From the NCBI GenBank assembly GCA_030754035.1, contig JASMBC010000001.1, positions 181,650 through 234,729 on the forward strand: a stretch of DNA of 53,080 nt. The letters run 5' to 3'. A program made the position numbers and the translations under genes. This document shows positions 7,257 to 48,480 of the stretch, one piece after another. Positions within the stretch are counted from its first letter, which is position 1; every line of letters begins with the position of its first letter. This stretch comes from Arenicellales bacterium (GTDB taxonomy: Bacteria > Pseudomonadota > Gammaproteobacteria > Arenicellales > UBA868). The notes beneath the pieces are model-generated. The model saw nothing but the letters and a program-made list of their open reading frames with translations. It was not told where the DNA came from and made no database searches.

Positions 7257-7343
7257 TGGTGCCGGGGGCCGGACTCGAACCGGCATGGTATTACTACCGA
7301 GGGATTTTAAGTCCCTTGCGTCTACCAGTTTCGCCACCCCGGC
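7257..7343 (-). tRNA. tRNA-Leu(UAA)
   Basis: Read on the minus strand, the acceptor GCCGGGG (7343-7337) pairs with CCCCGGC (7267-7261), followed by A and an encoded CCA. The anticodon stem AGGGA/TCCCT frames loop CTTAAAA, giving anticodon UAA. A long variable arm and the T-arm GGTTCGAGTCC are present, as expected for a class II leucine tRNA. It corresponds to leuZ of the E. coli glyW-cysT-leuZ cluster, but here it is separated from tRNA-Cys by 673 bases. Confidence 0.97.
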
Positions 7344-8016
7344 CGCATTGATTAATTAAGGGAAAACCGGAGTTTGAGATTTAAGATATCTCCCGGTGCA
7401 CCGCCTTTGCATCTCCAGACTGAAAAATGGATCAAATAACAGTCCATTTTAGCACCCAGTCATACCCTATAAACGGCGGCCATGGATACATTTTGCATCC
7501 CCCGCCTGCCGGTTGCTGGACCTGGAAAGGCGGCTTCGCGATGCGCATTTTCCTACCTTGCCTCCCCTACCGGGGCTGTGCGGGAATTTGCTCTAAGGAT
7601 GATACGAACGCCCTAGGTCTAGACCCCTGCCCCCGAATACTGAATCACGGGGAAAACATCACCAGCGCGCTTGTGCGGTTTTTGGCACCTCGTTTTCTGA
7701 TTTAACCGCTATCCCTGATTACGGGGCCGTACAGGCCTCTTCACGGGGTAGACGTCCGGGGGCAGGCCCCAGGTACGGGTAAGCACATATATGTGCTGCG
7801 GCAGCCCGTACGGGCACGCTAGGAGGGCAAGCGTTGATATTTGAGTATGAGCCTACCTTACCTGGGCGCCTAGAGAGCGAAATATTGTCTCAGCCTCGCC
7901 GGGTCGATCCGCCGTCAATGATGATTTAGAGGACGGCCCTACCCTGCGCGCTGTAGCGAATAACACTTCCGTATTAATTTTTCTTGTTGTCTTTTAAGTT
8001 TCAATTTCAAAAAGTT
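7344..8016. other. 673-base region without a convincing gene, inside the tRNA cluster
   Basis: This stretch lies between tRNA-Cys and tRNA-Leu. The longest open frames are short and not protein-like: a 92-codon plus-strand frame at 7427-7705 has odd composition and no clear ribosome-binding site. Several inverted repeats are visible, including a nested hairpin at 7773-7811 and GCCGTC/GACGGC at 7911-7937. I found no tRNA, tmRNA, RNase P or 4.5S RNA hallmark, no transposase and no copy of the flanking tRNA 3' ends marking an attachment site. It may hold a structured RNA, a decayed insertion or long spacer with promoter activity for tRNA-Leu. Confidence 0.6.
7773..7811. repeat. Nested inverted repeat / hairpin
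   Basis: GTACGGG at 7773-7779 pairs with CCCGTAC at 7805-7811, enclosing the 16-base perfect palindrome AGCACATATATGTGCT at 7782-7797. The outer right arm is itself part of the palindrome CCCGTACGGG (7805-7814). No T-tract follows on either strand, so it is not a typical rho-independent terminator. It could be an RNA hairpin or a protein-binding site. Confidence 0.6.
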
Positions 8017-8090
8017 TGGAGGCTGAGGGCGGAATCGAACCGCCGTACACGGCTTTGCAGGCCGCTGCATAACCACTCTGCCACCCAGCC
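8017..8090 (-). tRNA. tRNA-Cys(GCA)
   Basis: On the minus strand the acceptor GGCTGGG (8090-8084) pairs with CTCAGCC, including one G-T pair, followed by T and an encoded CCA. The anticodon loop CTGCAAA gives GCA, and the T-arm GGTTCGATTCC is present. It is 71 bases downstream of tRNA-Gly and corresponds to cysT of the gammaproteobacterial cluster. Confidence 0.97.
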
Positions 8091-8161: not shown

Positions 8162-8236
8162 TGGAGCGGGTGAAGAGATTTGAACTCTCGACCCTCACGT
8201 TGGCAACGTGACGCTCTACCACTGAGCTACACCCGC
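8162..8236 (-). tRNA. tRNA-Gly(GCC)
   Basis: On the minus strand the acceptor GCGGGTG pairs with CACCCGC and is followed by T and an encoded CCA. The D-arm GTAGCTCAGTGGTAGAGC is canonical, and anticodon loop TTGCCAA gives GCC. It lies 55 bases downstream of pgsA in the same direction, matching E. coli pgsA-glyW. Confidence 0.98.
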
Positions 8237-8291
8237 ATACGAAACGCAAGATTCTAGCCTGGCCAAACAGCCTGTCAAGTTTGCTGGAAGT

Positions 8292-17085: not shown

Positions 17086-17523
17086 TTACTCGGGCGCAAC
17101 CCGGGTGGCAAACGCAATTCGACTGAAACCGCCGTGGCGGACTGCTTCAAGTGCTGTCATCACTCGCTCGTGGGGGGTTTTGGCATCAGCACGAATAACG
17201 ACCAACGGTTGCTTGATACCTTGCGCAGCCAATTGCAAAACCTCAGTAAGTGTGACGGCGTCAACGGCGGCCCGCGCTGTTGTGACCGCTGAGCCTGCGA
17301 CTGAGACGCTGTACCCAGCAGCAGCGCCAATTGTTATGGTGATAGTCGATGGCTGCAGTTGTTTCTGGGGAGTGTTCTCGGTTTCAGGCAGTCGGATCTC
17401 GAGTTGGGCCTCCCGCGTAAACGTGGTAGAGACCATGAAGAAAATAAGCAACAGAAAAACGACATCTATAAGGGGCGTCAGGTTGATCGACACCTCTTCA
17501 GCCTTGCTGCTGGCGAACTTCAT
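17086..17523 (-). CDS. exbD: ExbD/TolR family biopolymer transport protein
   Basis: A 145-residue protein with a short cytoplasmic N-terminus, one membrane helix about 15-35 (LTPLIDVVFLLLIFFMVSTTF) and a periplasmic domain. The aspartate in LIDVVF is the conserved proton-channel residue. With ExbB it forms the proton-driven motor that energises TonB or a related partner. ATG 17523 is preferred because a longer frame overlaps exbB. No tonB is in the window. This exbBD pair sits in the comEC-msbA neighbourhood seen in Pseudomonas, so its partner protein is uncertain. Confidence 0.93.
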   Translation of the reverse strand: MKFASSKAEEVSINLTPLIDVVFLLLIFFMVSTTFTREAQLEIRLPETENTPQKQLQPSTITITIGAAAGYSVSVAGSAVTTARAAVDAVTLTEVLQLAAQGIKQPLVVIRADAKTPHERVMTALEAVRHGGFSRIAFATRVAPE

Positions 17524-47454: not shown

Positions 47455-48480
47455 TCAGCGCTTTATCTTTGCTTCGATGCGTCGTACCTGTCCTGCCGCA
47501 ACAGCCAGGCCAAGGAACCCTATACTGATCCATAGTACCGGATGTCCCGCGCCCGACACATTCAGGGAAGCCAGCGTGGCCAGAGTAATGCAACCGACTA
47601 ATGATACCGCAGATACTTTTTTGTGACTCCAACCCGCGCGTACCAGCCGTTGGTATAGATGATTCCGGTGGCCGCGCCACCAGTCCTCGCCCCGAATAAT
47701 CCTGACCACCAACGTATAGGAGGCGTCGAAAACGAAAAGCCCATAAAGCAGCAGGAACGCCTCAAAAGGAAGCTTGCCCGAAATGGCCCCCAAGATCGAC
47801 ATCCAGCCGAACCAGGCGCCAAGAGAAAGGCTGCCTACATCACCCAGAAAGACCCTGGCTGGTGACCAGTTGAAAAGAGCAAATGCCAGTACGCTGCCTG
47901 CCAAGGAAAAATTTATCAGACCCAAGAAAGTTTCACCGTTGGCATAAAACCAAAAGCCAAGCGTAAACGCTGCCACAACCGCCTGGGCTGCCGCTAAACC
48001 ATCTATGCCGTCCATAAAATTAAACAGGTTAACCATCCACAGCAGCCACAATCCAAGGGCCGGTAGCAGTAACCACAGAGGCAGAAATAAGGTCTGTTTG
48101 AAAATCGGAAAATAATCCGCCGGCTGGATCCACCCAATTTGAATGGCAGTCACGAAAAGGCCACCAGCGAAAATAGTTTGGGCCACTAAACGCTGGCTGA
48201 TCGACAGAAGATTCCGGTCGTCCAACAGTCCAATCACGGCATAGCCTAACAAACTAGCCCCGATAATCAGTTGCCATGTCCACTTCCCAGGCTCTGGTAC
48301 CCACAGCCAGCCAGCGATGACTGCTACAGTCATGATGATAGCAATTCCGCCGCCGCGCCGAGCGGTTCCAGTATGTAGGCTACGCTCATTGGGAATGTCT
48401 TCAACGAGAATGCTGTTGCGACAGTGCACTAACCCGGCTAGGATAACGGCACATCCAGCCATCGACAGAGCAGTCACCAA
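47455..48480 (-). CDS. WecA/WbpL-type undecaprenyl-phosphate sugar-1-phosphate transferase
   Basis: A 341-residue polytopic glycosyltransferase family 4 enzyme with about ten membrane helices. It starts glycan synthesis by moving HexNAc-1-phosphate from UDP-sugar to undecaprenyl phosphate. The catalytic loops are clear: NLFNFMDGIDGLAAAQAV, FLGDVGSLSLGAWFG and the HRNHLYQRL histidine motif. WbpL of Pseudomonas (GlcNAc/FucNAc donors) is the best guess because the WbpM-like dehydratase is next to it. The first start is TTG at 48480; an ATG at 48462 is as likely. Confidence 0.88.
   Translation of the reverse strand: MVTALSMAGCAVILAGLVHCRNSILVEDIPNERSLHTGTARRGGGIAIIMTVAVIAGWLWVPEPGKWTWQLIIGASLLGYAVIGLLDDRNLLSISQRLVAQTIFAGGLFVTAIQIGWIQPADYFPIFKQTLFLPLWLLLPALGLWLLWMVNLFNFMDGIDGLAAAQAVVAAFTLGFWFYANGETFLGLINFSLAGSVLAFALFNWSPARVFLGDVGSLSLGAWFGWMSILGAISGKLPFEAFLLLYGLFVFDASYTLVVRIIRGEDWWRGHRNHLYQRLVRAGWSHKKVSAVSLVGCITLATLASLNVSGAGHPVLWISIGFLGLAVAAGQVRRIEAKIKR

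Follow-up and report, generated by a model that had tools for sequence, protein, structure and literature searches.

A probable promoter and leader region of tRNA-Leu(UAA), with a conserved upstream unit, in the 673-base spacer behind tRNA-Cys of an Arenicellales bacterium

The 673 bases that separate tRNA-Cys from tRNA-Leu(UAA) in the window, that is, in the whole 53,080-nucleotide stretch of DNA analysed, probably comprise a separate promoter and leader of tRNA-Leu(UAA), here called R1, and a conserved upstream unit, R2, with dyads that are probably bound by regulators. On the favoured interpretation, it is a variant, specific to this lineage, of a known arrangement, the separate tRNA promoter/leader. 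In the lineage of the window, tRNA-Leu(UAA) would have been uncoupled from the Gly-Cys-Leu operon, and R1 would supply the promoter and a leader of about 95 nt for a tRNA-Leu transcript of its own.

The genome of the window is a draft of 1.75 Mb (69% complete, 125 contigs). The ARAGORN tRNA borders place the spacer at exactly 7344-8016, which confirms the length given in the preliminary description. On the minus strand, a pgsA-like ORF is followed by tRNA-Gly, tRNA-Cys and tRNA-Leu(UAA); the ORFs upstream of the tRNAs, which we take to be PgsA and UvrC, were named by eye, both in that description and here, and not by family search. The gene order behind pgsA is that of the E. coli glyW-cysT-leuZ operon, whose tRNAs are indeed close together, as the preliminary description said, with gaps in MG1655 of 54 bp between glyW and cysT and 12 bp between cysT and leuZ; the latter contrasts with 673 in the window. 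E. coli leuZ is not known to have a promoter of its own. Within the family of the window, the Cys-Leu gap measures 674 bp in G001, 843 in G031 and 1323 in G020, and it ranges from 3.4 to 8.4 kb in five more genomes (G008, G024, G003, G010 and G030); in other families of the order it measures 25 bp (G055) and 3.4 kb (G038); several of the longer gaps contain ORFs of ordinary length. In G003, contig C57 stops at 47677, the exact 3' end of tRNA-Leu(UAA), and contig C19 stops at 17442, the exact 3' end of tRNA-Thr(UGU), as if the population were variable there.

The spacer was first described as having several inverted repeats, no convincing reading frame and no recognised RNA, and this description holds. 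No match to its ORFs was found in Pfam (five ORFs tested) or PHROGs (two ORFs tested); the covariance-model search gave no Rfam family at gathering score, and at a low threshold the best matches touching the spacer reached E values of only 1.4 and 4.2. The low-threshold search of the window stretch and four relatives returned tRNAs and sub-threshold matches only, and the best of the latter, a ribosomal-protein leader (E 0.018, L047), sits upstream of R2. Inverted repeats are present, though folding of the tRNA strand is at chance level (z -1.1; 3 of 20 shuffles equally good); folding of the opposite strand is somewhat better than that of shuffles (z -2.7; 0 of 20). The blastn search of plasmid and phage collections gave no match, and weak matches of the spacer in three genomes of other families (E 0.002-0.008) were regarded as chance.

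The word "unexplained" fits the spacer when the window is taken alone, but with relatives 317 of the 673 nt are accounted for. Along the tRNA strand, the spacer consists of 163 nt, R2 (157 nt), an insert (193 nt) and R1 (160 nt), followed by tRNA-Leu (Table 1). Blast searches with the window stretch returned a core in front of tRNA-Leu(UAA) in G029 and in front of tRNA-Leu(CAA) in G018; the genome of the window and G001 each gave a further, partial match, in both cases ahead of tRNA-Leu(CAA). Where both modules occur, their order is R2-R1-tRNA and they lie about 12 to 340 nt apart (193 nt in the window). R2 was not found before R1 at the G003 Leu(UAA) gene, in G019 (whose contig ends shortly upstream), in G026 or at either of the two G010 copies, and in G014 R2 is present without R1. 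The trees of R1 and R2 carry a short, mixed signal; among the copies in G029, in G018 and at the G003 Asn gene, R2 is 75-79% alike against 59-66% for R1. A short ORF just upstream of R1 has related versions in L230 (G021) at 2220-2474 and in L229 (G019); the one in G021 lies between an R2 remnant and R1 and has no Pfam or PHROG match. In L051 (G000:C11), two similar repeats (GGTGTGCGGTGGCATCG...) stand ahead of the second R2-R1 copy.

Table 1. Features of the tRNA-Gly, tRNA-Cys and tRNA-Leu(UAA) region, in window coordinates.
Feature	Position	Strand	Basis
tRNA-Leu(UAA)	7257..7343	-	ARAGORN; Rfam tRNA, 58.6 bits
Module R1, promoter/leader region adjoining tRNA-Leu	7344..7503	-	alignment of 13 copies; 15 copies in 11 genomes
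Conserved R1 end before the tRNA	7344..7362	-	alignments; CCCTTAATTAATCAATGCG in the window, CCCTTATAAATCAATG in most relatives
TGCA-N6-GTGCA dyad/repeat, TGCAAAGGCGGTGCA	7397..7411	-	single pattern match in the 53-kb window; alignment complementarity
AATC-N7-GATT dyad over the presumed start, imperfect in the window copy	7435..7448	-	complementarity 0.77, R1 alignment
Promoter TTTATA, 16 bp, TAAAAT with TG (extended -10)	7446..7473	-	promoter scan; conserved -10
GGATGC-N5-GTATCC dyad upstream of the promoter	7484..7500	-	complementarity 0.80, R1 alignment
Insert between R1 and R2, 193 nt, this genus only	7504..7696	-	blastn against compared loci; elsewhere matches of about 20 nt only
Module R2, conserved upstream unit	7697..7853	-	alignment of 8 copies; 9 copies in 7 genomes
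163 nt adjoining tRNA-Cys, identical in G001	7854..8016	-	blastn against compared loci
tRNA-Cys(GCA)	8017..8090	-	ARAGORN; Rfam tRNA
tRNA-Gly(GCC)	8162..8236	-	ARAGORN; Rfam tRNA
Promoter-like site before tRNA-Gly, TTGACA-16-TAGAAT	8251..8278	-	promoter scan

The comparison covered 109 genomes of the order, 33 of the window's family and 76 others. The R1 model gave 15 matches at E 1.7e-10 or better in 11 of the 33 family genomes and none at a convincing score in the other 76; 13 of these matches had built the model, and the remaining two are G001, a near twin of the window, and a copy before tRNA-Asn in G010 (E 1.7e-10), which the model found without having been built on it. R1 matches of E 0.001 to 1, the sole R1 signal in 20 further genomes, were regarded as chance. 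All 15 convincing copies directly precede a tRNA gene, namely Leu(UAA) in seven cases, one of them a truncated gene (G032), Leu(CAA) in six and Asn(GUU) in two. The R2 model gave nine matches at E 2e-20 or better in seven genomes, eight of which belonged to the model, and its remaining matches were at E 0.003 or worse. Class-wide, 369 genomes were searched with each model, including G000 and some members of the order, and matches were convincing in G000 only; weak ones (E 0.001-0.009) were seen in three further genomes for R1 and four for R2. The pattern GTGYTARAAT-N25-55-TGCA-N6-GTGCA, written from the R1 copies themselves, has ten matches, which lie in 8 of the 109 genomes and coincide with R1 sites in every case; the reversed pattern has no match. 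A pattern of the R1 end, which the window copy does not fit, matched five contigs in the genome_contigs collection (described as covering 84,980 species), whose lengths agree with contigs of G003, G029, G032, G019 and G026.

The search of G003 (95% complete) turned up 39 tRNA genes, with a single gene for each anticodon apart from two for Met; R1 precedes its sole Leu(UAA) gene as well as its sole Asn gene, and a Leu(CAA) gene was not found. The remaining tRNA genes compared in G000, G001, G003 and G010 showed no R1, the gene sets of G000, G001 and G010 being partial. Leu(UAA) genes without R1 occur in at least eight family genomes (G008, G011, G019, G020, G021, G025, G030 and G031), so that R1 is not indispensable; with an Asn gene in G000 and a Leu(CAA) gene in G010 that also stand without it, the same gene therefore has R1 in some members of a genus and lacks it in others. 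The Leu tRNAs behind R1 read UUA and UUG, which make up 5.9% and 19.2% of leucine codons in 34 mechanical ORFs of the window. It is highly improbable that the spacer is merely unconstrained DNA left by a rearrangement between tRNA-Cys and tRNA-Leu; such DNA would agree with a Cys-Leu gap of 0.67 to 8.4 kb within the family and with the fact that the insert and the 163 nt, together 356 nt of the 673, have no relative outside the genus in the compared loci, short matches aside, but both modules are conserved across genera and at different tRNA genes, and for their part of the spacer this contradicts it.

The promoter scan found three sites in 1251 bases against 0.4 expected: one in R1, a strong one before tRNA-Gly and one near tRNA-Cys. 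The R1 promoter of the window has 9 of the 12 sigma-70 consensus bases, and the extended -10, GTGYTARAAT, is present in 13/13 aligned R1 copies. In 10/10 copies measured, the start of the -10 is 104-109 nt upstream of the tRNA, and the extended -10 promoter of the window lies at 108 nt. RNA polymerase would be expected to start near 7439, and the leader would be removed by RNase P. When 997 windows of the R1 alignment (14 copies) were scanned for two-fold symmetry (mean 0.26, SD 0.11), the three highest values belonged to TGCA-N7-TGCA (0.83), GATAC-N5-GTATC (0.80) and AATC-N7-GATT (0.77), which by count lie at about +35, at about -53 and over the presumed start, respectively. Both outer bases of GGATGC-N5-GTATCC are changed together in the G010 tRNA-Asn copy. 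Judged from the alignment, the three dyads look like candidate protein-binding sites, and they would probably be bound by one or more regulators. Since R1 stands at Leu(UAA), Leu(CAA) and Asn genes and its dyads are probably so bound, the tRNAs for UUA, UUG and AAY codons would be controlled together.

The reading of R1 as a promoter with its leader builds on its conservation, position, promoter match and dyads, and from these we infer transcription, a start site, processing and a regulator. An own promoter of tRNA-Leu is favoured by the fact that R1 is always found before Leu(UAA), Leu(CAA) or Asn, and by the nearly constant distance of the -10; against it stand the weak -35 of R1, the family Leu(UAA) genes that lack R1, and possible read-through of transcription begun at the promoter-like site ahead of tRNA-Gly. 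Nor would a promoter alone account for R2, which is as conserved as R1, yet lies at a varying distance from it.

R2, which may act as RNA or as DNA and which we regard as either a regulatory element lying upstream or one of a set of dispersed repeats, is represented by eight aligned copies with a mean column identity of 71%. Two short helices within it keep pairing through double-sided changes (GC to AU, UA to GU, GC to UA and GC to CG), and the covariation score of the short-helix set lies above that of 500/500 shuffles, although its doubly changed pairs are matched by 34/500; for a set of long-range helices, 2/500 shuffles reach the covariation score and 64/500 the doubly changed pairs. All of these helices were chosen on the same eight sequences that were used for scoring. 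The preliminary description had suggested a new structured RNA processed with the tRNAs, and these helices give a hint of such an RNA in R2. Nevertheless, it is improbable that a structured RNA comprising R2, or the entire spacer, is released from the tRNA precursor, for the third helix of the short-helix set pairs in just 61% of cells, the consensus structure of R2 has an energy of -4.2 kcal/mol and its covariation term is unfavourable, the R1 alignment has no consensus RNA fold, and the folding and Rfam results for the spacer given above likewise speak against it.

The tRNA-Leu(UAA) and tRNA-Asn genes look like island sites in the family of the window. A displaced 3' fragment of tRNA-Leu(UAA) was found in G032 and another in G010, where it lies 3.8 kb past the intact gene; such fragments of tRNA-Asn were found in several genomes. 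Both Leu(UAA) fragments found in the family are preceded by TGCA-N6-GTGCA, a pattern set beforehand from R1, at 130 and 132 nt, and the same repeat also stands 75 nt after the intact tRNA-Leu(UAA) of G010. About 0.9 Mb of loci, which are redundant and were chosen for R1, contain it in 17 contexts, of which 12 are R1 (10 sites, two of them on both strands), three are arms and two are unrelated, giving 15 distinct sites. Because R1 shares this repeat with islands in tRNA-Leu(UAA), an origin from mobile elements is possible, though we consider it unlikely: R2-R1 would have been left by integrative elements entering tRNA genes, and the spacer in the window would be what a lost island left behind. 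Such an element would bring an attachment-site arm and a promoter, and the rebuilt tRNA would then be transcribed from the element promoter, as in archaeal pTN3-like elements. The variable presence of R1 at the same tRNA inside one genus is in line with this origin, as are the R2 copy of G014 that lies ahead of a tRNA-Thr 3' fragment and the arrangement in G032, where R1 and then a 21-nt tRNA-Leu 5' fragment are followed by the start of an ORF with 30% identity to a G032 protein of 399 aa, itself a Phage_integrase match (E 5.9e-6, 26.6 bits) just under the Pfam cut-off of 27.1. Against it, this ORF has no Pfam match by itself, only a weak PHROG match (E 0.0098) whose function is not described, and a different repeat, CCGTCACAAA, beside it twice. 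In the R1 copies, TGCA-N6-GTGCA lies 92-96 nt from tRNA position 29 and not 130 nt away as at the fragments, and R1 is therefore not simply an island arm. Also against a mobile origin, the repeat is absent at 14 tRNA-Asn and three tRNA-Thr fragment rows (one Asn row being without upstream sequence) and at both tRNA-Leu fragments outside the family; a recombinase ORF was not apparent in the tRNA-Leu island of G010; nothing in IMG/VR matches the R1 and R2 patterns; and neighbours are mixed, with a downstream gene common to 7 of 12 Leu(CAA) loci and upstream genes common to subsets.

A displaced tRNA-Leu 5' or tRNA-Cys fragment is likewise missing from the window spacer and from eight other Cys-Leu gaps, and the 11 stretches searched for a displaced tRNA-Cys fragment gave chance matches of 10-13 nt only. 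Across relatives, the conserved sequence goes with tRNA-Leu and not with tRNA-Cys. Both results speak against the decayed mobile element targeting tRNA-Cys that had been proposed at first; of the idea of an insertion, what stands is the variable size of the gap, which is 25 bp in a different family and as much as 8.4 kb in that of the window, and an island link, which lies at tRNA-Leu and not at tRNA-Cys.

Several further observations were made at these sites. The tRNA-Leu(UAA) of G032 seems split into positions 1-21 (L243, G032:C53, 344-364) and 31-87 (L258, G032:C82, 1754-1810); the C53 fragment comes with R1 and the recombinase-like ORF start, the C82 fragment has downstream ORFs like those of the window, and a rebuilt tRNA-Leu(UAA) was seen on neither contig. 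In L049 (G014:C119), at 1-290, the tRNA-Thr(UGU) 3' fragment behind R2 starts at the anticodon stem. In G006 (L302, G006:C33, 1568-6321; L303; L306), tRNA-Asn is followed by two tandem displaced 3' fragments (positions 22-76); ORFs between the Asn fragments are cargo-like, one resembling a glutathione transferase and one a phytanoyl-CoA dioxygenase by eye only, and no recombinase ORF was noticed in this region. Repeats of 11 bp and of another type occur upstream of several Asn fragments. The motif TTTRTARGSGTTT, allowing at most one mismatch, occurs in 8/14 R1 copies, 6/15 fragments and 0/173 control tRNAs; it was written to fit both groups, has opposite strands in them and is missing from three R1 copies, that of the window and those at Leu(CAA) in G000 and G001, and it was set aside and not used as proof.

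Sigma-70 stable-RNA promoters of the tyrT type have upstream binding sites. The R1 region resembles them in having a promoter ahead of a tRNA with dyads around it, and differs in its extended -10, its leader, its dyads over and after the start and its restriction to three tRNA kinds. The Islander collection comprises 3919 islands, 3760 with a displaced 3' and 159 with a displaced 5' tRNA fragment (PMC4383910); as in such tRNA-targeted islands, two relatives have displaced tRNA-Leu 3' fragments with the R1 repeat at their flank, whereas the window spacer is without island, fragment or recombinase. For pTN3-like archaeal elements, a rebuilt tRNA expressed from the integrase promoter has been described, an arrangement said to be seldom encountered in bacteria (PMC8371274). 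Integration into the 5' half of a tRNA would likewise place an element promoter before the tRNA, but pTN3-like elements are archaeal, and no island of the 5' type is shown in these relatives. More doubtfully, R2-R1 could be a travelling tRNA promoter, by which integrative elements entering tRNA genes from the 5' side, with a promoter of their own and recombinase-binding repeats, take over the transcription of single-copy tRNA-Leu and tRNA-Asn genes, and the recombinase or a partner could control them. Among the titles and abstract openings surveyed, to which the original tycheposon paper did not belong, no report of an R1/R2 element was found.

Under the preferred reading, a separate promoter and leader of tRNA-Leu(UAA), the presence of R1 at just three tRNA kinds, two of them single-copy in G003, would point to joint control of UUA, UUG and AAY decoding in an uncultured lineage. 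Of particular interest is the R1 repeat, which recurs in islands at this tRNA. If it means that mobile elements supplied the promoter, the family would offer a bacterial case of the pTN3-like arrangement, rare in bacteria according to PMC8371274.
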